DNA of 64,000 nucleotides from Segatella oris (lineage in GTDB: Bacteria; Bacteroidota; Bacteroidia; Bacteroidales; Bacteroidaceae). This document shows, piece after piece, positions 44,582 through 59,515 of the stretch. Where the stretch lies: contig NZ_LR134384.1 in assembly GCF_900637655.1 (NCBI RefSeq), positions 1,426,001 through 1,490,000 on the forward strand. The letters are read 5' to 3'. Both the position numbers and the translations under genes were made by a program. Within the stretch, counting starts at the first letter, position 1, and each line of letters opens with the position of its first letter. The notes beneath the pieces are model-generated. The model ran no database searches and was not told the origin of the DNA. It worked only from the letters and a program-made list of their open reading frames with translations.

Positions 44582-45619
44582 ATGAGTATGCATAATATAT
44601 CGCTCACTTCGACAGAATACCAAAGTTTCAGAGACGAGATAACCAAGCGCATTCGCTCCGCACAATACGAGGCGTTGAAAGCCGTCAATAAGGAGATGAT
44701 AGCCCTTTACTGGGAAATTGGCATGCGTATTACAGTACAGCAGACAGCACTCGGCTGGGGAAAATCTGTTGTGGAAAACCTTTCCCAAGATATTCAAAAG
44801 GAGTTTCCGGGCATACAAGGATTCAGTGCGAGAAATATGTGGGATATGGCACGATTCTACTCTGAATATCAATCAAATGAAATTCTGCAACCATTGGTCG
44901 CAGAAATCAGTTGGACAAAACATATCGTCATTCTGACCAAGTGTAAGGAGACACAACAGAGACAGTTCTACATCTTGGCAACCAAGAAATACGGATGGAC
45001 GAAAGACGTGCTGATACACAAAATAGAATTGAAGACGTATGAGAACTTCCTGCTCGGACAAAGCAATTTTGATACCACGCTACCCGAAAACATTCGTAAT
45101 CAAGCCGCCCTTGCCGTAAAAGACGAGTACACTTTGGATTTTATCGGATTGGGCGAGGGGCATTCTGAATATGAGCTGGAACAGGCTATCATCAAGAATA
45201 TCCGCTCTTTTCTGATGGAGTTCGGAACGGACTTTTCGTTCATGGGAAATCAGTACCGACTGGAAGTGGATGGCAGGGAGTATTTTATTGACCTGTTGCT
45301 ATATAACCGTCGCTTGCAGGCAATGATAGCCGTGGAGCTGAAAATCGGTGAGTTTAAGCCTGAGTACAAAGGGAAGATGGAGTTTTATCTCAATGTCCTG
45401 AATGAGACGGTTAAGTTGCCGCATGAAAACCCTGCCATCGGCATCATCATTTGCAAATCCAAAAGCAGGACGATTGTGGAATATGCCCTCAAGACTTCGG
45501 CAATGCCCATCGGTGTGGCGACATACAGCCTTTCACCCGAACTGCCCGAAGCCTATAAGGAACTGCTTCCGGCATCCGAGGATATAGCCAAGAAATTGGA
45601 ACTGCTTATCAAAGAATAA
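44582..45619 (+). CDS. YhcG-type PDDEXK nuclease (DUF1016)
   Basis: 345 residues. The N-terminal DUF1016 domain (about 15-165) includes YWEIGMRITVQQTALGWGKSVVENLSQDIQKEFP and GFSARNMWDMARFY. The C-terminal PD-(D/E)xK domain has EVDGREYFIDLLLYNRRLQAMIAVELKIGEF, with Asp237, Glu252 and Lys254 as likely catalytic residues. Relatives are common on mobile elements and beside restriction systems and are thought to act on DNA during repair, recombination or defence. It may be a moron gene of this element. It is followed by the terminator at 45627. Confidence 0.88.
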   Translation: MSMHNISLTSTEYQSFRDEITKRIRSAQYEALKAVNKEMIALYWEIGMRITVQQTALGWGKSVVENLSQDIQKEFPGIQGFSARNMWDMARFYSEYQSNEILQPLVAEISWTKHIVILTKCKETQQRQFYILATKKYGWTKDVLIHKIELKTYENFLLGQSNFDTTLPENIRNQAALAVKDEYTLDFIGLGEGHSEYELEQAIIKNIRSFLMEFGTDFSFMGNQYRLEVDGREYFIDLLLYNRRLQAMIAVELKIGEFKPEYKGKMEFYLNVLNETVKLPHENPAIGIIICKSKSRTIVEYALKTSAMPIGVATYSLSPELPEAYKELLPASEDIAKKLELLIKE

Positions 45620-45661: not shown

Positions 45662-46036
45662 TTACCGCTTCTTGAACTTTCCGCCTTTCAGGTCGCTCTC
45701 CACCATACGCTTGTTCAGCTCCTCTCGGAGTTCATCAAGAAAATAGGTGCGGCTGTCATCCTTGCGGCGTTTCATGTTCATATAGACGTTGTAGCAGTTC
45801 TTGATTTCTATACCAAAGATTTCGGAAAAGGCATCTGCCAATTCTTCTATACCGATTTCACCATCGTTGATACAGGCACAGGTATCGAGTGCGTAGAGTA
45901 GTTCCACCAAGTCGGTTGCTTTACCTGTCCAACGGAATTTCTTAGCAGATTTGATAGGCAAAGAAGGAAGAAGCCCCTGCATCCTCATCTTCAGCAATTC
46001 CAGCTCCGTATCAATAACAAAGAGCAACTCTGCCAC
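45662..46036 (-). pseudogene. C-terminal fragment of an RteC-like regulator
   Basis: 124 residues reading MAELLFVIDTELELLKMRMQG... with a core KKFRWTGKATDLVELLYALDTCACINDGEIGIEELADAFSEIFG. That core corresponds to the C-terminal half of RteC, the regulator of CTnDOT excision and transfer (about 217 residues in full). The only start is a GTG inside the expected protein, and the frame is closed by a TGA just upstream at about 46073. The missing N-terminal half should continue into 46.1-46.4 kb, but that DNA is AT-rich and encodes something else. It is probably cut by arrival of the cargo island. Confidence 0.65.
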
Positions 46037-46298
46037 ATTTTTCCCCCAGATTGTCTTGATATGGGGATTTCATCTGTATTTGGTTTAACTGAAACCTTGT
46101 ATATTGTAACGTCCTAAACAAATCCATCGAATCTGTTGCTGTCTTACAAAGTCTTACAATATCTTCGATACAATTATCAAGAATATTCCTAAGACTCGCA
46201 TTTATAATATCTCTTGAAAAGAGAGCTTTGAAAGAACGTAATTTTATAAGTCTTTGCATATTAAATAAGTTACTTTGTAGATGTAATACATCAGGCAT
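46011..46298 (-). CDS. Short frame at the cargo-island junction
   Basis: 95 residues from the ATG at 46298 (a TTG at 46343 would overlap the end of the DUF4374 gene). The first 75 residues are helical (LQSNLFNMQRLIKLRSFKALFSRDIINASLRNILDNCIEDIVRLC). The last 20 read through the rteC remnant in another frame, so the stop is probably not the original one. No family is recognised. It may be the truncated last gene of the cargo operon. Confidence 0.4.
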   Translation of the reverse strand: MPDVLHLQSNLFNMQRLIKLRSFKALFSRDIINASLRNILDNCIEDIVRLCKTATDSMDLFRTLQYTRFQLNQIQMKSPYQDNLGEKCGRVALCY

Positions 46299-46339
46299 AC
46301 ACTCTTTCCATTTGTATATGCCTAATATTTCTGATAAAA

Positions 46340-47569
46340 TCAATCAAGACTAATGATCTTATATGGTCCAGCAGGAGTTTCTATTGATGGCACTTCATGT
46401 CCTCTTCCTGTCATTGTATCATACTTATAAAATCCAATTCCATTCTTTGTATGCTCTCCAAAATAGATGTTTTTCCCTACTTTGATGATTGCATTAGCAG
46501 CCCAACTCGAAGATGCTGGCATAGGCAAAATTTTTCCTGTTTTATTCTTTATGTCAATCTCGTAAGGAACAAAACATTTATTTTCAACACTTGCCGGATT
46601 TTGAGGGTCAGAAACTAGACTTGGTTTATGAAGGAAAAGGTATATCTTATCATTGCCACCGTAAATCATATACATACCATAGGAACCGACTTCAGCCCCA
46701 TCGGTTTTTTGAAGGCTCATATAAAAATCTTTATCAAAGTCAGTTTCTCCTTTCTTTATGCGTAATAAGCCATCATTATATCCCATATTGGGCATCATAA
46801 GACACATTATTGCAGCAGCAGGACCGGTATAAAAATATAGATTACCATTGTTGTCTAAAATAGGACAAGTATGTCCAATCATACCTAAACCAGTTGCTCT
46901 TTTATCTTTTATCACTTTCTCGACTTTGTCAGAAGCAATATCTATAACAGCTATCTGTGCCGATGTTCGTACCAACTCTTTCATTGCCTTAGTCTGATTT
47001 AGAGGCAAGAATAATTTTCCATCTCGCACAATTCCGTTTCCTGCATCAGGATCGTTATCCTCCTCAGCATACGGCGAAAGATCTATTTCTCTTATTATTT
47101 TCATTGTTGATGGATTTATAACGATAAGTTGCCCTCGGCTCGCACAAGTAACGGCATATGCTTTCGTCTCACTTGCAAAAATAAGCTCTACTACGTTAGG
47201 TGATCCTGGGAAAGAGAGACTAGCCACAGGGACAGAAGAGATTCTTCCTTTGTCATCTATGGAATACTTGTACAAGGTTTGTTCTCCTCCTTGTCCGAAA
47301 AGAGAACCAGATTGAATGTACACATGTTTTCCATACTTCTCCATAAAAAGATGACCAGATGGTACAGTAATAGATTCACTGAATGAAGTCTTTGTTCCTT
47401 TTTCAAATCCTTCAAACGTAGTGATAAAGAATCCATTATCTACATGAGAGGCATAAGCAAAATGATGAATATTCTCCTTGCCTTTAGGAATATCATCCTC
47501 CTTATTGCAGGATATTACAGACAATGTCAACGCTAATGCGGGCAAAACCCATAGAAATTTTTTAATCAT
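46340..47569 (-). CDS. DUF4374 lipoprotein
   Basis: 409 residues. A lipoprotein signal (MIKKFLWVLPALALTLSVISC, Cys21) is followed by a chain of beta-propeller-like repeats (QTLYKYSIDDKGRISSVP, QLIVINPSTMKIIREIDLSPYAEE, IAVIDIASDKVEKVIKDKR, YEIDIKNKTGKILPMPASSSWAAN). This matches DUF4374 proteins, which in Bacteroidota are encoded next to TonB-dependent receptors and are presumed cell-surface ligand-handling partners. It is the last clear gene of the cargo operon, 33 bp after the receptor gene. Confidence 0.85.
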   Translation of the reverse strand: MIKKFLWVLPALALTLSVISCNKEDDIPKGKENIHHFAYASHVDNGFFITTFEGFEKGTKTSFSESITVPSGHLFMEKYGKHVYIQSGSLFGQGGEQTLYKYSIDDKGRISSVPVASLSFPGSPNVVELIFASETKAYAVTCASRGQLIVINPSTMKIIREIDLSPYAEEDNDPDAGNGIVRDGKLFLPLNQTKAMKELVRTSAQIAVIDIASDKVEKVIKDKRATGLGMIGHTCPILDNNGNLYFYTGPAAAIMCLMMPNMGYNDGLLRIKKGETDFDKDFYMSLQKTDGAEVGSYGMYMIYGGNDKIYLFLHKPSLVSDPQNPASVENKCFVPYEIDIKNKTGKILPMPASSSWAANAIIKVGKNIYFGEHTKNGIGFYKYDTMTGRGHEVPSIETPAGPYKIISLD

Positions 47570-47602
47570 ATTGTTATAATTTTAATTGGTGAATAATATT
47601 TC

Positions 47603-49996
47603 TTAGATTGTATATCTCAATTTTAGATGGAACGTTCTTCCTGGTAGTGGATAACGAAATTCTGCCCAAGCACGCTTGTTAAATAAATTATGTATCTCAA
47701 AGTTCATATGAAACCTGTTATAAAAAGAGCATTTTGTTCCAATATAGAATATCCATTTGCGAGGAACTATCATCGTGTTTTGAACGCTTGCCTCCCAATT
47801 ATAGCTGAACCTTTCTGTAAATTCGAAGCCCGTAAATAATGAAAGATGGGAATTTTTCAGTATCACATTATGTTTATGGATATTGAATTCACTGTTAGCA
47901 TAAAAATATGGTAGATTTGGAATCCGATAATTATAATGGAAGTTCTTTCCTCCCCCGATAGCAGTTCTCTCTATGTCTCTAGCATCCAAATAGGTAACAT
48001 TTCCTTTAAAGGATAGCCAAGAAGTAAGTTCTGATGTAAGTTCTCCTTCAACTCCGATATTTCGTATCTTCCCGATATTCGCATGAACCATATTCATGTT
48101 ACTATACATCAACTTTATCATATCTCTGACATTCATATAGAAAGCATTCAAATCAACACGAAAAGTAGGATAACTTGTCCCCAATAGACAACTAACTCCT
48201 ATATTTACATTTAGACTTTTTTCTGATTTGAGCTTGGAAGAAGGATATATCAACATCCCATCTCCAAATAACTCCTTTACAGTTGGCATCCGGAAATTAG
48301 AGGCAATAGATGCTTTCAATGTAAAAAAAGGATTGAGATGCCAAGCTAAGGCTTCGTTCCAACCTATTGAATGGGCACTGGTCCTAACAATTTCAGGTTT
48401 CTTTTGGACGGAATTTATTTCATTAGATGGCATAACTTCTGATACATAATAGAAAAATTTTCCACCAAGTTCATTCGTCATTTTATTGTCAAATAAACTT
48501 GATTCATAGCTAATTCCAGAAGTGATAGAATACACCTTATTGGGATAACCACTTGTTGGATAATGAGCATATTTATCAGCTAATTTATCTTCGGGTATTT
48601 TATTGTTATATTTATACGTAGTATTCCAATTTATCGAATGATAATTATTTATTCTATAGTTTATATTCAGCATTTCTTGTAGTGAAAAAAGTTTATCGTG
48701 TGAATCGTTAGGTAAAGCTCCTATTTCCCCCTGCACAGATCCACTTTTGAATTTATTTCCAATAAAATCGTAACAGTAGTGAGACGTATCCACTTGATTT
48801 ACGAGCGAGAAGTGGACATTTGAGCTTAAACTGACAGAAAGGTGATTTTCAAGAAGAGATTTTGACAAATACTGCCTGATCTGAATTGTTTTGCTTTTAA
48901 TATGGGCATGTTGAATGTTGTTTTGTACATTCATCAATCCGCCTTGTATTTCATCATAAACATTATCTACACCTATATCCACCAAAGAATTATTAAACCA
49001 AGATTTGAGAAAAGAGATACTTCCATGTAGTTGCCAATATCTATATCTATCATGATCCCGATGAATTGTTCTTCCTTGTTCAAAAGGAGACACGAAGTCA
49101 TAATTATTCAAAGAAGAATTAAATGTCCCTCCTATCTCAAAATGAAACCTGTTGTTACTTAAGTTTTTATGAAGAATAAAGTTTGCAAGATGGGTATTAT
49201 ATGAAGAGATTTCATACATAGCTTCAAAATAGTCTCTCAGAGAAGATTTAAGTATGATATTTATAGCACCACCCAGCCCTTCTCCTCCTAATTTTGCAGG
49301 AACATTTCCTTTGTAAATCTCTACAAACTGAATGGCGTCAATAGGAATGGAAGCAAAGGAAAATTCTTCTGAACTGCCCATTGATATACCATTGATAAAA
49401 ACACCAATGCGTTTACCATCAAGACCTTGAATAATAATTCGAGATATACTTCCAAGACCTCCTTGTTGTGCAACTTTTACTCCAGACGCTCTATTCAGGA
49501 TTTCATTGAGTGTTGCAACTTGCCCTTGTAACATTTTAGAATCCAGTATTGTAACAGAAGATGGGACTTCTCTCATTTTTTGAGTTTTGCTTTTTGCTAT
49601 CACCCTTACTTCTGATAGTTCTTTATTCACTGGAAACAAGGACACGTTGATTTCAGTAGAAGTCTTTTGAGGTACTTCCACGTTGCGTTTTTCTGTTTGA
49701 TATCCGATGCAAGAAAAAATAATAACATATTCCCCTTTGGGTAGTTGTAATTGGTATTTTCCTTGATTATCCGTAACGCATCCTAAAGTATTTGATACAT
49801 AGACAGAAACCTCTGATAATCCTTGCCCTGTTTCTGCATCCTTAACAACTCCATAATATGTCGTAATATGCGAACTTTCTTGTGCAAAAATAGAGCAAGG
49901 TTGTATGAGAGGTAAAGTAACAATGCCAATGCTCCATCTTATTATGTTATTGTAAGGAATCAGAAACAGAACGTTCAATCTGACATTTCGTTTCAT
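47603..49996 (-). CDS. TonB-dependent receptor of the cargo operon
   Basis: 797 residues from the ATG at 49996 (MKRNVRLNVLFLIPYNN...), with an in-frame ATG at 50050 as alternative; the first gives a better signal peptide (cleavage after FAQ). A carboxypeptidase-like domain (GVVKDAETGQGLSEVSVYVSNTLG) precedes a TonB plug (MREVPSSVTILDSKMLQGQVATLNEILNRASGVKVAQQGGLGS, GGEGLGGAINIILKSS) and a 22-strand-type barrel ending LPGRTFHLKLRYTI. The plug is of the siderophore/vitamin type and no SusD gene is present. Gene context (PchR-type regulator, DUF4374) suggests uptake of a metal chelate, an inference. Confidence 0.88.
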   Translation of the reverse strand: MKRNVRLNVLFLIPYNNIIRWSIGIVTLPLIQPCSIFAQESSHITTYYGVVKDAETGQGLSEVSVYVSNTLGCVTDNQGKYQLQLPKGEYVIIFSCIGYQTEKRNVEVPQKTSTEINVSLFPVNKELSEVRVIAKSKTQKMREVPSSVTILDSKMLQGQVATLNEILNRASGVKVAQQGGLGSISRIIIQGLDGKRIGVFINGISMGSSEEFSFASIPIDAIQFVEIYKGNVPAKLGGEGLGGAINIILKSSLRDYFEAMYEISSYNTHLANFILHKNLSNNRFHFEIGGTFNSSLNNYDFVSPFEQGRTIHRDHDRYRYWQLHGSISFLKSWFNNSLVDIGVDNVYDEIQGGLMNVQNNIQHAHIKSKTIQIRQYLSKSLLENHLSVSLSSNVHFSLVNQVDTSHYCYDFIGNKFKSGSVQGEIGALPNDSHDKLFSLQEMLNINYRINNYHSINWNTTYKYNNKIPEDKLADKYAHYPTSGYPNKVYSITSGISYESSLFDNKMTNELGGKFFYYVSEVMPSNEINSVQKKPEIVRTSAHSIGWNEALAWHLNPFFTLKASIASNFRMPTVKELFGDGMLIYPSSKLKSEKSLNVNIGVSCLLGTSYPTFRVDLNAFYMNVRDMIKLMYSNMNMVHANIGKIRNIGVEGELTSELTSWLSFKGNVTYLDARDIERTAIGGGKNFHYNYRIPNLPYFYANSEFNIHKHNVILKNSHLSLFTGFEFTERFSYNWEASVQNTMIVPRKWIFYIGTKCSFYNRFHMNFEIHNLFNKRAWAEFRYPLPGRTFHLKLRYTI

Positions 49997-50061
49997 TAAG
50001 AGAAATACCTCTACAATAACTTTGTAGAATAGATATATAGACATGGCCATTTTTTAATTAC

Positions 50062-51345
50062 TTAAAAGCTATACTTCATCTTCATCCATATTTCGGAGTT
50101 CTTTTTATACATATCAAACATTCCTCCATCCGCATGGAAATAATCGAATCCTCCTGTTATGCTTATTTGATCATTAATCGAGTATTGAGCAGCAAATCTA
50201 TTGAATATCCCCCCGTGAGTAACATTTATATAGGCAAAAGAAGATAGAGAGAGAGTATTGCGGAATAATTCCTTGGAAATCCGAGCTGTTGCCAAACCTG
50301 TATTTTTTAGAACAGCGAGTCCTGATAGATTCCCGGATATGTATTTATGTGCATATTGGATGCTTAAATTCCAATCATTTCCTAGGAACCAATCTACCCC
50401 TACAAGTCCATTAAGACTATTGCGTTCCTTTACTTTTTGTCCGAATTGGGCATTTTGTGCCTCATTCAAGAATGTTGCAGCTTCACCTCTTAAAACAAAA
50501 TTCCCTACTGGTATAGAAAGATCGCCTCCAAGCATTGTCATTCTTCGATAATTTCCAACAACAGAAAGTGTGTATTTTTCAGAGAGCGAATAACTTAATG
50601 CTGGTGTTTTATTCCAAGTGTGCAACGCACAAAAGGCAAAATCCACCCCTGATAAATTAAAAGATACACGTCCTCCAAATTCCATATTCCCTATTCTCTT
50701 ACTCGGTTTCTGACTTTCAAGGTCTATAGAGTAAGGTGATTTCGATGAAAGTTGTATTGCCCAAGGGTTATGTTTATCTGTAGAAAGCAGGAAAAATTCG
50801 GAAACAGGAACACAAATAGCTTCTATGCTAAAAATAGAATGTATATACTTCACTCGGAAAGCATTTACAGGAGTACGAATGTCATCATAATCTTGTGCCA
50901 AAAACTCAGTATAGTCCATAGGCGAAATCTGGTCTGTAACACGTAAAGCATCTGCATTTCCCCAAATAATGATTTGCCTACCTGCTCGTAAATTAAAATC
51001 GCCAGCGTTATAAGTCAAATATGCTTCTCTTAGATTAAGACCTGTACGGTCTTTTAAGATTCCATTATAGATAGCATTCATGGATAAAAATAACCCTACA
51101 TTTTCTTTTTCAAGGGAAACTTCTCCACGCAATCTCGTTCTAGAAGACATCCAATCACCTTTTCCACTCGCACGAACAGCATGATAGGTGTCAAGAAAGC
51201 CTTTTACCTGAATATTAAGATTGTTTTCTGACATATCAGAGAAATCTGTGTAAAGGCTATCGTTTTTCGTTATTTCTTCTTGAGATAATGCTCGGATCGG
51301 AAATACCGAAGTGAGCATTATTAGCAGCAATATATTTCGACACAT
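50062..51345 (-). CDS. DUF1302-like outer membrane beta-barrel
   Basis: 427 residues with a signal peptide (NILLLIMLTSVFPIRALSQ). The barrel has alternating strands and the stretch YLTYNAGDFNLRAGRQIIIWGNADALRVTDQISPMDYTEF, which resembles the GRQ-x-WG...NP-x-D motif of DUF1302 porins. The C-terminus IWMKMKYSF ends in Phe as outer membrane barrels do. In Proteobacteria DUF1302 proteins occur with an MMPL transporter and a LolA-like DUF1329 protein; the same trio appears here. The gene starts 2 bp after the LolA-like gene stop. Confidence 0.75.
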   Translation of the reverse strand: MCRNILLLIMLTSVFPIRALSQEEITKNDSLYTDFSDMSENNLNIQVKGFLDTYHAVRASGKGDWMSSRTRLRGEVSLEKENVGLFLSMNAIYNGILKDRTGLNLREAYLTYNAGDFNLRAGRQIIIWGNADALRVTDQISPMDYTEFLAQDYDDIRTPVNAFRVKYIHSIFSIEAICVPVSEFFLLSTDKHNPWAIQLSSKSPYSIDLESQKPSKRIGNMEFGGRVSFNLSGVDFAFCALHTWNKTPALSYSLSEKYTLSVVGNYRRMTMLGGDLSIPVGNFVLRGEAATFLNEAQNAQFGQKVKERNSLNGLVGVDWFLGNDWNLSIQYAHKYISGNLSGLAVLKNTGLATARISKELFRNTLSLSSFAYINVTHGGIFNRFAAQYSINDQISITGGFDYFHADGGMFDMYKKNSEIWMKMKYSF

Positions 51346-51347
51346 AG

Positions 51348-52127
51348 TTATATCCCCTTTTCTAGTTTTGATACTGTGAATAAGTTGGGTTCAATTTTTA
51401 CATTAAAACGAGGATCGCTTATGGATAAAAGCGTTCGATGCCCTGTTTGGATATTCTTCATCTCCATATGCAAGACACACCAAAATCCTTGTATTTCCGA
51501 TATTTGAGACGCATAGAAACTACGATGCAGTTTATTTAATTTATCGTAATAATCGACTTTAACGGCAATACAGCAGTCCTGTCGAATCCATGATATTTTT
51601 TTTGAGTATATCTCTTGCTTTCCTACAGGAATAGATTCTACTACCCAACATTTATGACCTTCAAAAGTTTCCTCTCTGAGAAAAGTATGCTTATCCTCAT
51701 CTACATTACGTGAGCCCATATCATCATAGGTAAAATCACTTCCCATGAAATAGTCCGTTTTAGAAGATTTTCCACTAATCCTTCTCGTTTTTTTCATTGC
51801 AGGTAGATAAAGCCATTTGTCATCTTCTTTATTTGGATTATCATAATCCCATGTAAGAAAGCCAGTCCCTTTTACATCGCCAGGATAAGTAAAAAACATG
51901 ATTTTTTTCGTGTCTTTACCGACATCCATAGCCCATGAAGAGAGTTTACGTTCTCGCTTACTGCCATTTTTCTGAACAAGAGTCATACTCAACGTGGCAT
52001 AACGAGTATCACCATCGGGACGATTTTTTACTTTAAGCATAATTTCTCTTCCGGAAGGGGTACTTGCATTTGCAACACAAAAGCACATCACAGAGAGTGC
52101 TATGATTATTAAACTTTTCGTTCTCAT
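51348..52127 (-). CDS. LolA-like outer membrane lipoprotein-sorting protein
   Basis: 259 residues with a signal peptide ([21 protein letters not shown]). The mature sequence is the open beta-barrel of the LolA-like PF17131 family: [110 protein letters not shown]. Such proteins carry a lipid or other hydrophobic ligand through the periplasm and are paired with MMPL/RND transporters. Its ATG overlaps the transporter stop (ATGA), so the two are translationally coupled. Confidence 0.9.
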
Positions 52128-54505
52128 TGTTTATTGATTTTTAATGTTGTATTGAGTGGGTCTTTTTTTTCTACGCCGAAAAGATGTAGATATTTGAATA
52201 ACACAGGTGTCAGGAATAAATCTGCGAGAAGAGCTGACACCATACCGAGGATTGCCAATAATCCCCAATTTTTCATTTGAATTGCATCAGAGGAAATAAA
52301 TCCTGCAAATGTTGCAGATATGACTACTGTGGACATTACTATTGCAATACCCTCGATTCTGAAAGTCTTATTTATGGATACATCGTAATTTCCAGTTAGA
52401 CTATATTCAAGATGCCCATGATTGATAAAATGGATAGTATCATCAACGGCTATACCTAAAATCATCGGAATGATGGAAGCTGTCATCATATCAAGAGGAT
52501 AGTCTAGCCACCCCATGATTCCCCCGACAATAATAGCAGGTGCTAAGTTCGGAATCATTCCAACAAGCCCTACTTTCCAACTCTTGAAGACAATCAGTAA
52601 GATAATGCCAATGATTAAGATGGATAAAAGCATAGACCACATTTGGCCTCTTTCCACATATTGTTGCATTACGGTGAATTGCGGAAGGTTGCCAACGGTA
52701 GACACATGGGCGTTTGGATACATTTTTTTTGCCTCAATCTGAATATTTTTCATTTCTTTTTCAGCCTCATTGGAATTATATGATTTTATTTCTATTTGAA
52801 GTCTTAGTCTTCTATAAGCATAATCCATCCAATATTCAGATTCTGTTCCACCCGCATTTTCATATAGCAGCAACAATTGAGCTATCATATCTGGGTTATC
52901 AGGGATTTTATAGAAATCAGTATTGTTCCCATTCAATGTATAATTCATATCCTTTATGATGTCCAAGATAGAATTATGGCGTTTTGTCAAAGTATAGCTA
53001 TTTGCAATTTGACTCAATCGTTCCAACTTTTCTAAATTTTCGGGCTTTTTAGCATCTCCTTCATTGGGGAGTACAATCATCAAATCGTAAGAATACATGC
53101 TGCCAAGTTCCGTATTACACAATTCCAAAAATCTATTCGCATAAGGAACTTTTTTCCCGACAGTTTTTTCCAAGTCAAAAGCTGGCTCAATAAAGCACAT
53201 GCCAATCCCACAAAAGATTGTGATAATCACCGATATAATAACAATAGAGCGATGGTTTCGACAGATAAAGCCCCCCATTTTCTCAAATCTGTCTCCCAAA
53301 AAAACTTCAATACTCTTTGAAATATTGACATGGGGAGGCTTATTTTTTCCAAATGACAAGATGATAGGGGTGATAAATAGGCAAGTTAATAACACTGAGA
53401 GCAGACACAGTGTTGTATTTATACCGATGGCTTTCATAGGTACAATTTTCATGGCGAGAAAGGACATCATTGCAGCCACAGTTGTTACACAAGCAAGTGT
53501 AACTCCCCAGCCTGTTCCCTCTAAGGATGCAATAATTGATTCCCTACGCTTTCCTGTCTGAAGAAAATGTGTCTTAAATAGACTATATAAATGAATGTTG
53601 TAGGCGACGGAACATGCAAATGTAAGAATGACGGCAATCATAGATGTTGACATGTCTATATATAGTCCACTCCATCCGATAATTCCAAAACCAAGAATAA
53701 TTCCTGAAATAGTTGTTAGTATTGGAGATATTACACCACGAATCGAACGTGTTACAAAGAACATAACAATTATAGCAGCAATAACTGCAAACAGCATAAG
53801 ACGTCCCATCTCTCCTTTCAGAAAAACGAATTTCTCATAGTTTAGATAAGGCATTCCAGCCGCGTTGGGGGACAAAGATTTGTATTTATCTTTGTTGATA
53901 ATGTGTTCCGTTTCTTTCCCAGTTAACATGTCAGGAGCCAAATCACTCGATTTCTTCCATTCTTGTTCTTCAGGAAAAGGCCTAAGTTTTACTAATATCC
54001 AAGTCATTTTTCCATCTTTGGACACAAGTTTACTAGCTATGTGAGGTTTGGAATATGCTTTCTCTTTTATCGCCTGCAATCCTTGTTTGTCAATAGGGAT
54101 ATCTTCTGGAACGATTTGCTCAATCTGCATTCCATCATCATTACCTACCATAAATTCCAAGTCTGTTAATGACGTAACTTTTTCTGCATATGAAAGGCTA
54201 TCGACCAATTCATTACTTAATTCTCGAATCAGTTTCAGACTTTCATGAGAAAAAATGTTGTCATTATTGACCAATACGGCAACATAATAGTCATTTCCAA
54301 AAATAGATTTGAACTCATTTGTTTTAATTAGCATAGGATCATCCTTGATGAAATAATCATCAAAAGAAGTCTTCATCATAATTCTTTTCATCCCTACAAA
54401 AGAAAAAGCAAGAATTCCAATGAAAGAAATAACTACGAGTAGACGATGCTTTAATATCCACATCGTCATCTTTCCAAAGATTTTATTGATACTATTAATC
54501 CTCAT
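52124..54505 (-). CDS. MMPL/RND-family transporter
   Basis: 793 residues in two similar halves. Each half has one membrane helix, a large periplasmic loop and a block of five helices; examples are [59 protein letters not shown] and, in the second half, [37 protein letters not shown] with [25 protein letters not shown]. This is the MMPL (RND-like) architecture, driven by the proton gradient. It heads the cargo operon. The partner LolA-like and DUF1302-like genes suggest a trans-envelope route for a hydrophobic or amphiphilic molecule; direction and substrate are unknown. Confidence 0.92.
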
Positions 54506-54677
54506 ATGCTTATTTTTTAATTAGTTGCAGGTATAATCCGTGATGTTATTTCACACACATAATATTCAATGAACAACCATTTATTGAGAGTGATATTATT
54601 CCTCTGAAACTCTTCATTTGAGAGAGAATTCATCATATTACTCTTGTATGTAATTATGAATTACTGTTCTTTTGATG

Positions 54678-54685
54678 CAAAGGTA
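54678..54685 (-). promoter_or_regulatory. -7 box of the cargo operon
   Basis: TACCTTTG on the minus strand, about 170 bp upstream of the transporter ATG at 54505. No -33 TTTG lies at the normal distance, as expected for a promoter that needs an activator such as the adjacent AraC protein. The 348-bp divergent spacer holds nothing else recognisable. Confidence 0.45.
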
Positions 54686-54818
54686 TATCTATGTAAACAA
54701 GAGGTTTATACGAGAAAGGAAGTTTTATCAACGAATTTGGTCGACTTCTATATTTTTAGAGGAAGCCAGTAGATAAAAATCCCCACAAATGGGTATTGCT
54801 GAAAAAGCCTAAAAGGAT

Positions 54819-54826
54819 TATCTTTG
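54819..54826 (+). promoter_or_regulatory. -7 box of the AraC regulator gene
   Basis: TATCTTTG 27 bp upstream of the ATG at 54854, with ATTG 20 bp before it as a weak -33 box. Confidence 0.45.
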
Positions 54827-54853
54827 TAAACTAATTCACGTCATATATAGGAT

Positions 54854-55765
54854 ATGGAAGTATTTCAGCTACATATAGATAAGCGTTTTCCTGCATCAAA
54901 TATTCGACTTTTAGAGGCGGAGGGGATGAGTATTGTATGGGGAACATTTCAATTGAATGAAGAATTAGATATACAGAAATACTCTTCAGATACGAATAAA
55001 TCTAGAAATAACTACTTCTTATCACATTTCTGTATTTCAGGGAATACAAAATCAACAGCAACCGAGCGTCAATTTCAGATTTGCGATGAACAGCACAGTA
55101 TTTTCTCTCTTAAGGAACGATCTGCTGTCAATCTACATATTGCTCCTTCTCGAAAAGGATACAACTCTTTCTTTGAGTATTCCCTGTCACAAAAATATTT
55201 CAAAGAACATTTCATACAAGAAAGTCGTATCTTGAATGATATGGAGGAGCGAACAGAAATGGAATCTATTTGCTGGGCAGGCAGAAATCTATGTATAACT
55301 CCCTCAATGATGTTCCTCATTTCTGAAATTACCAGACAGCCATATTCGGGAGCAATGATGAGTTTGTTTTTGGAAAGCAAAATCATGGAACTGTATCTTG
55401 CTCAGATTCATTCTTTTGATTCTTATGATTATCACATCTTAAAACTATCAAGAAACGATATAGACAGACTCTATGATGCACGGGATTACATTTCCGAGAA
55501 TTTGAACAAAAGAATATCTATTTTAGCTCTTGCACGTGAAATAGGTATAAACCAAACCAAATTGAAGACCGGGTTCAAACAGTTATTTGGAACTACGATT
55601 TTTGATTATGCCATTGATCAAAAGATGAAACTTGCTATAGCGTTGTTAGAAGAGAATCGCTTATCATTGACGGAAATCTCCTATAAAATAGGTTATAGCC
55701 ATCCCAATCATTTCTCTTTGGCATTTAAAAGAAGATTTGGTGTGTCGCCAAGCATGTTTACATAA
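54854..55765 (+). CDS. AraC-family regulator of PchR type
   Basis: 303 residues. The N-terminal ligand-binding part contains NNYFLSHFCISGNTKSTATERQFQICDEQHSIF, a layout seen in PchR-type siderophore regulators. The C-terminal double HTH (about 210-303) reads ISILALAREIGINQTKLKTGFKQLFGTTIFDYAIDQKMKLAIALLEENRLSLTEISYKIGYSHPNHFSLAFKRRFGVSPSMFT. The N-x-x-KLK-x-GFK-x-LFGTT-x-F signature is that of PchR/YbtA/AlcR, which sense a siderophore complex and activate its receptor genes. It is divergent from the cargo operon and is the likely regulator of it. Confidence 0.88.
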   Translation: MEVFQLHIDKRFPASNIRLLEAEGMSIVWGTFQLNEELDIQKYSSDTNKSRNNYFLSHFCISGNTKSTATERQFQICDEQHSIFSLKERSAVNLHIAPSRKGYNSFFEYSLSQKYFKEHFIQESRILNDMEERTEMESICWAGRNLCITPSMMFLISEITRQPYSGAMMSLFLESKIMELYLAQIHSFDSYDYHILKLSRNDIDRLYDARDYISENLNKRISILALAREIGINQTKLKTGFKQLFGTTIFDYAIDQKMKLAIALLEENRLSLTEISYKIGYSHPNHFSLAFKRRFGVSPSMFT

Positions 55766-55803
55766 GGCAAGTCTTGTGTAACACGGAGAAAATACAATTC
55801 ATT

Positions 55804-55829
55804 AGAGATATACTTTTTAGTGTATCTCT
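55804..55829 (+). terminator. Terminator after the AraC gene
   Basis: AGAGATATAC and GTATCTCT pair with one bulge around an 8-nt loop, followed by TTTTTC. Confidence 0.6.
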
Positions 55830-55857
55830 TTTTCTTGCCACTTCCATCCATATCAAC

Positions 55858-55956: not shown

Positions 55957-57351
55957 ATGGACGAAAAAATCAAAGACCAAGAAGTCCTTTTGGTCAAGGA
56001 TCAGAAGGACGAGGATCTCAAAGCCGTCACAGGTACGGACGAGAAAGGCGGACTGAAAACCGTTCCGCCTACCGCCGAGCATGAACAGAGCTTCCTGAAG
56101 TTCGACAAGCACAGCAATGCGCTGGAAAACTTCCTCTCCAACTTCATGCGGCAGTTCAAGAACCCTACGCCGCTGAATTTCTTCAAAGTTCCCTTCGAGA
56201 GTGCCGTTGCCAGCGCACGGGTTCTCTCCGAGATGCTCCAAGCTCCGGATGTTCCCTCCAATAAGGAGATGCTGGATTCCGCCCGTGTCAATCCTTCCGA
56301 CTATGCGGTAGAGCAGAAACAGTCCTTCCAAGGCATTGACCCCGACAAGGTGAAGTGGGAACAGTTCGAGCAGATGGGCGTAAGCCGTGAGAGTCTCGAA
56401 AAGGGCAAGCATCTTGATGACCTGCTTCAATACAGAAAGACTCCACTTGTTCCCATCAGCATCAAAATCGGGGAAGTCTCCCTGCATACCGATGCCCGTC
56501 TTTCCCTGAAAGCCTCCGGAGACGGAACATTCATTCCCGTTGTCCATGCCATCCGCAAGGAACCTCAATTGGAGCGCGAGTTCTTCGGGCATACCTTCAC
56601 CGATGAGGACAAGAAAGCCCTCAGAGAAACGGGCAACCTCGGTCGCACCGTGGAACTGACCTTCCCCGGCAAAGATGAGCCGACCCGCAGTTTCGTAAGC
56701 ATCGACCGCCTGACCAACGACATCATCGCCCTGAGTGCCGACCGGGTACGCATCCCCGATGAAATCAAGGGCGTGAAGCTGAGCGATGAGCAGAAAAAGG
56801 AGTTGTCGGAAGGCAAGAGTATCTACGTGGAGGGAATGACATCCAAAACGGGAAAGCACTTCAATGCCAACCTTCAATTCAATGCCGACAAGCGGTCTAT
56901 TGAATTTCGTTTCGGCTCTCCCAAACAGGAACAACGCCAAAGACAAGCCCCCGAAGGACAGGAACAGGCGGAGCAGAAAGAATTGCGTGTCCCCAAGAAG
57001 ATGCTGGGACGCGACATCTCTCCCGAAGAGCAGGCAAAGCTCAAAGCAGGTCAGACGGTCTATATGACCGGGCTTATCGACAAGAAGGGAGAGCCTTTCA
57101 ATGCCTATGTACGCCCGAACTTCGAGAAGAACAAGTTCGACTTCCTCAAATGGAATCCCGACAAGTCCCAAGCCAAAGAGGTTATTCCCGACAATGCTTC
57201 CCGCACGCAAGTCGCCGTCAATTCCGAAGGCAAGACCAACGAAGCTACCAAGCATGTGAAGGAGCCACTCAAGCAGGGACAGACAGAGCCTACCACGGGG
57301 CAGGAACAAAAGCAAGAAGAGAAAAAGCGTTCCAAGGGAATGAAAATGTAA
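55957..57351 (+). CDS. DUF3945/DUF4099 protein of the conjugative element
   Basis: 464 residues, soluble and highly charged. After an acidic start, a DUF4099-like segment (about 105-190: WEQFEQMGVSRESLEKGKHLDDLLQYRKTPLVPISIKIG) is followed by DUF3945-like repeats: VKLSDEQKKELSEGKSIYVEGMTSKTGKHFNANLQFNADKRSIEF and, again, DISPEEQAKLKAGQTVYMTGLIDKKGEPFNAYVRPNFEKNKFDF. A Gln-rich linker and a basic tail close the protein. The same type of repeat also appears at the end of the adjacent topoisomerase. These genes accompany topB in CTnDOT-type elements; the role is unknown. Confidence 0.85.
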   Translation: MDEKIKDQEVLLVKDQKDEDLKAVTGTDEKGGLKTVPPTAEHEQSFLKFDKHSNALENFLSNFMRQFKNPTPLNFFKVPFESAVASARVLSEMLQAPDVPSNKEMLDSARVNPSDYAVEQKQSFQGIDPDKVKWEQFEQMGVSRESLEKGKHLDDLLQYRKTPLVPISIKIGEVSLHTDARLSLKASGDGTFIPVVHAIRKEPQLEREFFGHTFTDEDKKALRETGNLGRTVELTFPGKDEPTRSFVSIDRLTNDIIALSADRVRIPDEIKGVKLSDEQKKELSEGKSIYVEGMTSKTGKHFNANLQFNADKRSIEFRFGSPKQEQRQRQAPEGQEQAEQKELRVPKKMLGRDISPEEQAKLKAGQTVYMTGLIDKKGEPFNAYVRPNFEKNKFDFLKWNPDKSQAKEVIPDNASRTQVAVNSEGKTNEATKHVKEPLKQGQTEPTTGQEQKQEEKKRSKGMKM

Positions 57352-57354
57352 TCC

Positions 57355-57379
57355 GCCACCACTAATATCCAAAAAGTAA
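57355..57379 (+). promoter_or_regulatory. Leader motif upstream of topB
   Basis: GCCACCACTAATATCCAAAA followed by AGTAA, 6 bp before the topB ATG at 57386. It is a variant of the CCACCACTAAAATCC family. Confidence 0.45.
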
Positions 57380-57385
57380 GAACAA

Positions 57386-59515
57386 ATGAAAGTCATCATA
57401 GCAGAAAAGCCGAGCGTAGCTCGTGAAATCGCCCGTGTCGTTCGGGCAACCAACAAGAAGAATGATTATATCGAAGGAGGCGGCTATGCCGTCACGTGGG
57501 CATTGGGGCACCTGATAACGGCAGCCATGCCCGAAGTTTACGGCATCAAAGGTTTCCATAAAGAGAACCTGCCGATTCTTCCTCCCGTCTTTACCCTTAT
57601 TCCCCGCCAAGTCAGGAGCGGTAAAGGCTACAAGGCAGACCCGAGTGCCGTTGCCCAGCTCAAAGTCATTGAAAAACTCTTCAAAGCGGCAGAGGGCATC
57701 ATCGTAGCCACCGATGCCGGAAGGGAGGGTGAGTTGATCTTCAGGTTCATCTATGAGTATCTCGGCATCGCCAAACCATTCGACCGTTTGTGGATCAGTT
57801 CGCTTACGGACAAAGCCATCAAAGAGGGGCTTGCCCATCTGCAAAGCGGTGCGGCGTATGACAATCTCTATTATGCCGCCCGGGCACGCAGCGAAGCCGA
57901 CTGGCTGGTGGGTATCAATGCCACCCAAGCCATATCCATAGCGGCAGGACGAGGTACTTACTCCTTGGGTAGGGTACAGACCCCGACTCTCTGTATGGTC
58001 TGCTCCCGTTTCTTGGAACATAAGAAGTTCGAGCCACAGCCATTCTGGCAACTCAGTCTTGCTGTAAAGGAGGGTGATGAGAGCTTCCGTTTTTCTTCTG
58101 CCGACCGCTGGTTTGATAAGACGGAAGCCACCGCCCTGTATGATAAACTCAAACAGGCTCCTTATGCCACCGTGGAAACGATTGTGCGCAAGGAGACCAG
58201 ACAGGAGCCACCGCTTCTGTACGACTTGACCACCCTACAGAAAGAAGCGAACAGTAGATTCGGCTATTCGGCGGAACAGACCCTTTCCTTGGCGCAGAAA
58301 CTCTACGAGAAGGCGTACATCACCTATCCACGCACGGGCAGCCGTCATATCCCTGAAGATGTGTTTGCCGAAATACCTGCCTTGATAGCCTTTTTGCACG
58401 ACCATTCCGTTTGGGGTGTCCATGCCCACCGACTGACCGAACTCAATGCGCACTCTGTGGATGGGACGAAAGTGACCGACCACCACGCCCTGCTCATCAC
58501 GGGCAAGAAACCGATAGACATGTTCGGAGAGGAAGTAGTCATCTACGATATGATAGCCGGACGTATGCTCGAAGCTTTCTCCGCCCGTTGCGTGAAGGAT
58601 GTCAGTACGGTTACTGCCATTTGTGAAGGCGTGAAGTTCATCCTCAAAGGTGAAATCATCAAGGAAGAGGGTTGGCGTGCCGTCCTCAAAAACAGCAGGA
58701 AGAAAGACAAGGAGCAGCAGGAAGCCGAAGAACGGGAAAGCAGGGAAAACGGAGAAGGCATCATCATTCCTCAATGGGAGGAAGGTAAGCAACTTCCGCT
58801 CTGCGCCTGTTCGTTGGCACAGGGAACGACCAAGCCCAAGCCTCTGCACACGGAAAGCTCGTTGTTGGCGGCTATGGAGACGGCAGGCAAGGAACTGGAG
58901 GATGAGGAACTGCGTACGCAGCTCAAGGATTGCGGTATCGGCACGCCTGCTACCCGTGCCGCCATCATCGAAACCCTCTTTGCCCGTGAATACATGGTGC
59001 GCCAAAAGAAGTCGCTCGTCCCCACGGAGAAAGGACTTGCCGTCTATTCCATCGTCAAGGGGATGAAAATCGGCAATGCTGAGATGACCGGACAATGGGA
59101 AGCAGACTTGGCGAAAATCGAACGAGGAGAGTTGAAAGAGCAAGAGTTTCGCAAGGGCATCGAAAACTACGCCACACAGATTACCGACGAACTGCTTTCC
59201 TCCAAAATTCTCTTTCCCAAGAAACAGAGCGACATCCATTGTCCCAAATGCGGCAAAGGCTCACTGGTCTTCTATCCTCGATGTGCCAAATGCTCTGATG
59301 CCGATTGTGGGCTGACGCTTTTCCGCAGCGTGGCAGGCAAGAGCCTCACAGACGAACAACTGACGCAGTTGGCGGTAAACGGAGAGACTGGCATCATCAA
59401 GGGCTTTACCTCCAAAACGGGCAAGAGCTTCGAGGCTTCTCTCTCCTTGGACGGAGAGTTCAAGACGGTCTTCATCTTCCCCGAGCGTAAAAAACCGGGC
59501 AAATCCCGAAGGTAA
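57386..59515 (+). CDS. topB: DNA topoisomerase III (TopB/Exc-like)
   Basis: 709 residues. Toprim domain: MKVIIAEKPSVAREIARVV at the start and IIVATDAGREGELIFR (about 109-124). Type IA core: GRVQTPTLCMVCSRFLEHK, and KAYITYPRTGSRHIPEDV with catalytic Tyr314. The C-terminus has a zinc ribbon (IHCPKCGKGSLVFYPRCAKCSDADC) and a DUF3945-like repeat (LTDEQLTQLAVNGETGIIKGFTSKTGKSFEASLSLDG). In CTnDOT the corresponding Exc protein is a topoisomerase III linked to excision. The gene sits 34 bp after the DUF3945 gene. Confidence 0.95.
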   Translation: MKVIIAEKPSVAREIARVVRATNKKNDYIEGGGYAVTWALGHLITAAMPEVYGIKGFHKENLPILPPVFTLIPRQVRSGKGYKADPSAVAQLKVIEKLFKAAEGIIVATDAGREGELIFRFIYEYLGIAKPFDRLWISSLTDKAIKEGLAHLQSGAAYDNLYYAARARSEADWLVGINATQAISIAAGRGTYSLGRVQTPTLCMVCSRFLEHKKFEPQPFWQLSLAVKEGDESFRFSSADRWFDKTEATALYDKLKQAPYATVETIVRKETRQEPPLLYDLTTLQKEANSRFGYSAEQTLSLAQKLYEKAYITYPRTGSRHIPEDVFAEIPALIAFLHDHSVWGVHAHRLTELNAHSVDGTKVTDHHALLITGKKPIDMFGEEVVIYDMIAGRMLEAFSARCVKDVSTVTAICEGVKFILKGEIIKEEGWRAVLKNSRKKDKEQQEAEERESRENGEGIIIPQWEEGKQLPLCACSLAQGTTKPKPLHTESSLLAAMETAGKELEDEELRTQLKDCGIGTPATRAAIIETLFAREYMVRQKKSLVPTEKGLAVYSIVKGMKIGNAEMTGQWEADLAKIERGELKEQEFRKGIENYATQITDELLSSKILFPKKQSDIHCPKCGKGSLVFYPRCAKCSDADCGLTLFRSVAGKSLTDEQLTQLAVNGETGIIKGFTSKTGKSFEASLSLDGEFKTVFIFPERKKPGKSRR

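Follow-up and report, generated by a model that had tools for sequence, protein, structure and literature searches.

A candidate iron-piracy cassette with an exporter of its own in the cargo slot of a Segatella oris conjugative element

We have analyzed 64,000 nucleotides of the genome of Segatella oris (assembly GCF_900637655.1, positions 1,426,001 to 1,490,000 of NZ_LR134384.1, a genome of one 3.17 Mb contig), hereafter the window, and in it a cassette of six genes within a conjugative element. The six intact open reading frames lie between 46340 and 55765; five form an operon on the minus strand and the sixth, divergent on the plus strand, codes for an AraC-family regulator. The operon genes are tightly spaced, with one overlap of 4 bp and gaps of 2, 11 and 33 bp at the other junctions. 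A preliminary description of this DNA had proposed an AT-rich cargo island of an integrative and conjugative element (ICE) at 46040..55840 with these six genes. All of them were found as open frames where it placed them and the Pfam families agree, the limits of homology with related elements fall close to that interval, and the island has a GC content of 35.3% vs. 46.5 and 52.9% in two measured stretches of the element flanking it. The genes are the following:

46340..47569, minus strand, DUF4374 surface lipoprotein, XusB-like and of the short Bacteroides fragilis type (PF14298, 26.6 bits)
47603..50050, minus strand, TonB-dependent receptor, XusA-like (Pfam receptor, plug and N-terminal carboxypeptidase-like domains)
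50062..51345, minus strand, DUF1302-like outer-membrane barrel (Pfam DUF1302, 60.6 bits)
51348..52127, minus strand, LolA-like/DUF1329 periplasmic carrier (Pfam LolA_like, 221 bits, and DUF1329, 73 bits)
52124..54505, minus strand, MMPL pump, a resistance-nodulation-division (RND) protein of putative HAE3 type (Pfam MMPL, 124 bits)
54854..55765, plus strand, AraC-family regulator (HTH_18, 68 bits, and HTH_AraC)

We call the MMPL pump, the LolA-like carrier and the DUF1302-like barrel together the trio, and the kind found in the window the type-1 trio. L-numbers are labels of loci compared with the cassette.

Judged by the kinship of its two proteins, the import half is of a known kind, the piracy of xenosiderophores. 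The best solved relative of the receptor was 9gbc_A (E 1.3e-60, residues 78-812), which we take as XusA of Bacteroides thetaiotaomicron because of its DUF4374 partner chain and the account in PMC13142918. Its true start may lie inside the annotated frame. Among the NCBIfam models the best was MxcH (282 bits, under the cut-off of 925), while the BtuB and haem models scored about 99 bits. The single DUF4374 sequence finds XusB weakly (E 0.12); a profile of 54 relatives matched B. fragilis XusB (9hqe) nearly over its full length (E 2.9e-24) and B. thetaiotaomicron XusB only in short pieces. Cys21 of the lipoprotein is invariant across these 54 sequences, and the mature N-terminus, C-N-K-E-D-D, fits the signal C-X-K-(D/E)2-X reported as optimal for surface export (PMC5080379). 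With 409 residues the protein belongs to the short XusB group; the short hookless form, that of B. fragilis, has been reported to bind ferrichrome and the longer hooked form catecholates (PMC13142918). As described there, the Bacteroides XusABC system has adjacent genes for a TonB receptor and a DUF4374 lipoprotein, as the window does. The window cassette differs from it in the absence of the PepSY gene XusC and in the added trio and AraC regulator.

In the export half, the best NCBIfam model for the MMPL protein was HAE3 (TIGR00921, 203.6 bits, below the cut-off of 351.9), and its solved relatives are weak ones, HpnN (E 7e-6) and MmpL5 (E 0.03). Its LolA-like/DUF1329 and DUF1302 partners are encoded beside it in the operon, as assigned by Pfam. 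HpnN transports hopanoids, and deletion of the HAE3 exporter AmeABCD of Castellaniella reduces monoterpene tolerance (PMC6394551); MmpL4 and MmpL5 are reported to export mycobactin (PMC12803245). Like the window, where the MMPL protein is a candidate HAE3 pump, AmeABCD combines its HAE3 pump with partners in the periplasm and the outer membrane, and export across two membranes was proposed for it in an account that also contains the terms DUF1302 and DUF1329; it differs in its fourth protein AmeC, in its link to monoterpenes and in the absence of a receptor from the system as reported (PMC6394551). No AmeC-type fourth periplasmic protein was found by Pfam among the six window genes. The closest solved relative of the LolA-like protein is 9tp6 (E 6.9e-104), the LolA3 of Porphyromonas gingivalis encoded by PGN0947, for which a function apart from LolA has been suggested and which has a hydrophobic groove (PMC13103446). 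The DUF1302-like barrel is 42-61% identical to 13 relatives at trio loci.

The response of operons with trio-like annotation to iron stress is well established; they are tied to the window trio by annotation and gene order only. In P. gingivalis the genes PG1175-PG1181 (ABC proteins, transposase, hypothetical, lipoprotein-sorting protein, MMPL and TetR; ABC stands for ATP-binding cassette) rise 13- to 136-fold in iron limitation, and three operons of similar annotation in Prevotella intermedia 37- to 223-fold (PMC10434189). Excess haemin lowers the P. gingivalis TetR, lipoprotein-sorting, hypothetical and MMPL genes by log2 -7.4 to -8.1 (PMC10470040), and PG1178-PG1180 increase in an hmuS mutant (PMC13227078). 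Strong induction by iron or haem limitation, for which a test had been suggested in the window operon, is on record for trio-like annotated operons elsewhere (PMC10434189, PMC10470040). By annotation, PG1175-PG1181 and operons of the type of PIOMA14_I_0908-0914 in P. intermedia share with the window MMPL, LolA-like and hypothetical proteins in one operon, which in those species responds to iron or haem; TetR and two ABC proteins are part of them, and these accounts mention no receptor pair (PMC10434189, PMC10470040). The window cassette, in contrast, has AraC and the receptor pair, and the TetR gene and ABC pair found upstream of such trios are absent from it.

The regulator matched HTH_18 and HTH_AraC and no Pfam N-terminal domain. 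No model named for PchR or YbtA was among its NCBIfam hits; its helix-turn-helix motif is presumably like that of PchR/YbtA. Among the matches listed, its named relatives on plasmids carry generic names only. The DNA between regulator and operon is colinear with that upstream of the operon of L144, a related slot where MatE, receptor, ABC ATPase and a 1093-residue protein stand under an AraC protein 80% identical to that of the window (best 24-mer 20/24 vs. at most 17 in 30 shuffles). The L144 block has TTCGT-N8-CTTCC half-sites 21 bp apart, and TACCTTTGCA is common to L144 and the window, in which two features were placed:

54697..54735, minus strand, putative AraC half-sites in tandem with 21 bp spacing (by eye)
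54678..54685, minus strand, putative -7 element TACCTTTG for the promoter of the operon, with a conserved counterpart at the corresponding position in L144

The half-site at 54718-54735 fits the motif with no mismatches, a fit that is not independent, since the motif was derived from the L144 pair and from 54718-54735 itself; the other (54697-54714) is degenerate. The -7 motif of Bacteroidota is TAnnTTTG. Directly before the AraC gene, TATCTTTG at 54819-54826 on the plus strand may be its own -7 element. Given the conservation between window and L144, one block of regulator and promoter fronts two operons with nothing in common beyond a TonB receptor and an exporter, and these differ in kind. 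At L129, an AraC protein of 33-35% identity faces a set of receptor, major facilitator superfamily (MFS) pump, binding protein, FecCD and ATPase, and this receptor passes the cut-off of a siderophore-receptor model (266 vs. 223.5). The coupling of receptor and exporter seen in the preliminary description recurs with other exporter families, MATE (multidrug and toxic compound extrusion) in L144 and MFS in L129. To judge from the neighboring genes, the regulator probably senses the imported chelate.

The element around the cassette is conjugative, with TraM, a TraG-type P-loop ATPase, DUF4138, relaxase, coupling protein, topoisomerase and RteC all recognized by Pfam. The cassette lies between two edges:

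45662..46343, minus strand, left slot edge, RteC encoded in two frames that overlap (PF09357, 96 bits, in the downstream frame)
55957..59515, plus strand, right slot edge, DUF4099 protein and topoisomerase (Pfam)

The 18 related slots L133-L150 were selected solely for a DUF4099 protein with 82% or more identity across 352 residues or more; L151 and L152, included because they have DUF4374, stand outside the 18-slot counts. On the left, nucleotide homology with related elements ends at 46042-46048 in 13 of the 16 that cover that side, and at 45910-45967 in L140, L151 and L152. On the right it restarts at 55803-55837 in 19 of 20 elements, within a terminator-like hairpin (by eye), and in L144, where the AraC gene is also shared, at 54670. 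The borders nearly coincide among elements whose cargo differs, and such near-constant points of break and restart bear out the proposed ICE cargo and give it sharp borders. Position 46048 was considered as the exact cargo edge and dropped, as RteC-like codons extend beyond it to about 46256-46343; the cargo proper is therefore about 46257-55823.

The upstream RteC frame ends G-E/K-K-C-...-C-Y/H and the downstream one, in the +1 frame, starts G-K-N-V. A like upstream frame and overlap are found in L134, L143 and L144, and the layout may point to translational coupling or to frameshifting. A YhcG/DUF1016 nuclease (44582-45619) is encoded between the coupling protein and RteC; it is present in only some of the 18 related slots.

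The contents of these slots vary. Ten of the 18 (L134, L135, L138, L141, L142 and L146-L150, of which L146-L149 resemble copies of one element) contain an AraC gene together with genes for a receptor and a lipoprotein related to DUF4374, with an ABC pair divergent from them; lipoproteins of this second type are 31-33% identical to that of the window. In five of the ten (L134, L135, L138, L141 and L150) the set continues with DUF1302-MMPL-LolA. The MMPL of this distant trio is 23% identical to that of the window in L134, the one distant-trio slot on which Pfam was run; in L135 MMPL is in two frames, and in L150 LolA lies beyond the fetched end. L143 has MatE with a different AraC, L133, L140 and L145 have other cargo, and the end of the contig cuts the slot in L136, L137 and L139. 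In L133 a TetR gene and a GTP cyclohydrolase II gene (1672-2952) occupy the same slot. Among 90 DUF4099 genes listed, DUF4374 was found within 15 kb in 14 cases, always on the 5' side and divergent, and never on the other side. The window genome has a second related element, with its slot about 71 kb away (L114, 1391500-1411499) beside RteC and a coupling-protein gene, and containing an ABC pair, a receptor, a DUF4374-related lipoprotein and AraC. No near copy of the island was found on plasmids. The stretch from RteC to DUF4099 is, by these comparisons of sequence, an exchangeable cargo slot. An ICE of Riemerella (PMC6491836) resembles the present one in its putative TonB receptors, RteC and topoisomerase; DUF4374, an exporter trio and a shared slot are not reported in the accessible text of that account.

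A first scan for company of the trio and receptor pair used MMPL queries; as this initial search of genome contigs found no close MMPL relatives, the second was made with a DUF4374 alignment. It gave 80 named loci, picked purely by DUF4374 similarity (the best 80 of 174) and some of them cut by contig ends. Within 10 kb of DUF4374, 77 of the 80 had a related receptor; one or more trio genes were present in 17 and the whole trio in 12, the latter including Hoylesella enoeca, Bacteroides faecis, Fibrobacter and uncultured Bacteroidales. No match to the L134 distant trio was found in these loci, where the hits fell on the type-1 trio. In the window's genus (398 genomes), DUF4374 lay within 20 kb of 8 of the 39 MMPL copies counted at E <= 1e-150, vs. 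0.59 expected under uniform placement. Neither the figure from the 80 loci nor that from the 39 copies is corrected for shared ancestry. Both agree with the earlier expectation that the genes travel together.

The fullest order, receptor-DUF4374-small protein-TetR-ABC-ABC-MMPL-LolA-DUF1302, was found in L033, L037 and L122; L034 and L036 are of the same kind, but with MMPL interrupted or partial. The ABC pair of these fuller cassettes was considered as a siderophore importer, for which the signs are mixed: the best bacterial solved relatives of the first ABC protein are YbtPQ (6p6i) and IrtA, TM_0288 comes first among bacterial solved entries for the second, and MsbA is the top NCBIfam model of both, under its cut-off. 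In L099 and L104 the five operon genes follow the order of the window, with a gap of roughly 2.6-4 kb and no AraC gene. Relatives of the window MMPL (72%), DUF4374 (82%) and AraC (59%) in clusters P0002, P0122 and P0249 share the same longest listed contig of 9907 bases, which suggests that it holds a second copy of the AraC-type unit. The window genome has a second trio as well (L113, 2641000-2660999; MMPL 71% identical, 51% GC), with TetR and an ABC pair and no receptor hit, adjoining frames that resemble fragments of tyrosine recombinases (by eye). The preliminary description knew of no named system of this composition. The exact order with AraC was seen in none of the other loci examined; the two halves are known separately, and fuller versions with an ABC pair and TetR occur in named species.

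On balance we favor reading the cassette as exchangeable ICE cargo in which the uptake of xenosiderophores is joined to an outward-directed trio. The narrower claim that it has a role in iron or siderophore handling we hold with considerably more confidence. By kinship with XusAB, the DUF4374 lipoprotein would capture a ferric xenosiderophore at the cell surface and pass it to the XusA-like receptor, which would bring the chelate to the periplasm. The trio, by comparison with the HAE3 and Ame systems, would provide a second route, outward over the inner membrane, periplasm and outer membrane. The conserved upstream block suggests that the AraC protein would activate the operon from the divergent promoter, probably on sensing the chelate. 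The weakest step is what leaves the cell: the outward arm would most likely expel the siderophore once stripped, or a by-product formed when iron is released, and so close the cycle, perhaps by recycling the siderophore. For the inner-membrane step, the ABC pairs at L113 or L114, or the product of the single PepSY_TM gene found in the window genome (at 2.17 Mb), could serve.

Neither of the siderophore synthetase families IucA/IucC and nonribosomal peptide synthetase (NRPS) condensation domain was found in the window genome, in agreement with the lack of biosynthetic genes noted at the outset. A home-made chelator of either type is therefore unlikely, siderophore piracy fits, and the return of a stolen siderophore becomes the simpler reading. 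Of the metallophore cycle that had been proposed, the import of an iron chelate is supported, through relatives of XusA and XusB; for the export of a lipid-like chelator by the trio no support was found, and the trio often occurs without such a receptor. That both halves handle one and the same molecule we infer from the variation of the exporter family (type-1 trio, distant trio, MATE, MFS) while receptor and AraC stay. In favor of the iron reading, trio copies outside the window-type slot lie near FeoB (L040, L063 and L067) or flavodoxin (L124 and L126), and flavodoxin is also within the 20 kb stretch of 3 of the 20 copies without DUF4374 that were examined.

Several observations weigh against this picture. 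Trio copies without the receptor are many and receptor sets without the trio exist too, which touches directly the argument for one molecule. In the genus, 31 of the 39 MMPL copies have no DUF4374 within 20 kb; 20 of these were examined and all 20 had MMPL-LolA-DUF1302, 14 had TetR and both ABC genes, and the query receptors gave no match at any of the 20. Receptor and ABC pair stand without a trio in L035, L142, L146-L149, L151, L152 and L114, and no other locus examined has the six-gene order of the window. MATE and MFS pumps on ICEs can be plain drug efflux. Relatives of the AraC protein (E <= 1e-30) were found in 3 of 399 genomes of the family, the window's own included. Pfam found no XusC/PepSY gene or other inner-membrane importer among the six cassette genes. 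The PF14298 match of the lipoprotein is barely above the cut-off of 25, and the second slot-type lipoprotein (that of L114) was assigned no Pfam family. When the profile alignment is inspected by eye, the ferrichrome contact W235 of B. fragilis XusB (PMC13142918) appears to fall on a Leu/Ile position, and W323 does not appear to be conserved. Since the W235 position is not W here, ferrichrome itself is not predicted as the ligand.

The likelihoods that we attach to the readings overlap, as two of the rivals share the import half, and hence sum to more than one. The strongest of the rivals, still an unlikely one in our opinion, accepts that the receptor pair imports siderophore-iron and makes of the trio a co-regulated pathway of lipid or envelope maintenance under iron stress that moves an endogenous lipid in the manner of HpnN. 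HpnN, a mover of hopanoids (PMC6394551), is the best, although weak, solved relative of the pump, the groove of LolA3 is hydrophobic (PMC13103446), and the trio stands without the query receptor at the 20 copies examined; what this reading does not predict is that a distant second trio and unrelated MATE or MFS pumps hold a similar place by receptors. The varying exporter beside a constant receptor would also be accounted for if the trio were a protective efflux for toxic chelates, sideromycin-like antibiotics or porphyrins entering through the receptor, and the lowered monoterpene tolerance on AmeABCD deletion (PMC6394551) points the same way. We consider this improbable: no cassette gene resembles, by Pfam, a toxin-modifying or resistance enzyme, and the iron-limitation response of the trio-like annotated operons (PMC10434189) needs no toxic ligand.

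Slightly less probable still is a ligand other than a siderophore, be it haem, a cobalamin-like molecule or another metal ligand. The P. gingivalis operon does respond to haemin limitation (PMC10470040) and rises in the hmuS mutant (PMC13227078), and the BtuB and haem models do score the receptor. However, these scores compare with 282 bits for the siderophore-receptor model MxcH, and XusA and XusB are the best relatives of receptor and lipoprotein.

Returning to the cassette as xenosiderophore uptake joined to export, its parts are known, and what is new within the published work searched is their joining, in a Xus-type cassette that is mobile and brings an iron-stress exporter with it. Among the titles retrieved on ICEs with siderophore cargo in Bacteroidales and on the trio under iron limitation, in a search outside which most subscription journals lay, none describes this combination. 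We know of no description in Gram-negatives of the return of a siderophore by a non-producer. The wider proposition, that Bacteroidota exchange complete cycles of siderophore use and return on conjugative elements, with the stripped siderophore re-exported by MMPL-LolA-DUF1302, MATE or MFS systems, is speculative and we put it forward tentatively, as rather doubtful.

The MMPL-LolA-DUF1302 operon type represents one of the strong and unexplained iron-stress responses of oral Bacteroidota, and its tie to siderophore receptors gives it a testable function. Cargo for the acquisition of iron is exchanged in the conjugative slot, and iron piracy would by this means pass between species in one step. 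If the return of the siderophore is true, one stolen molecule would be reusable many times by a non-producer.

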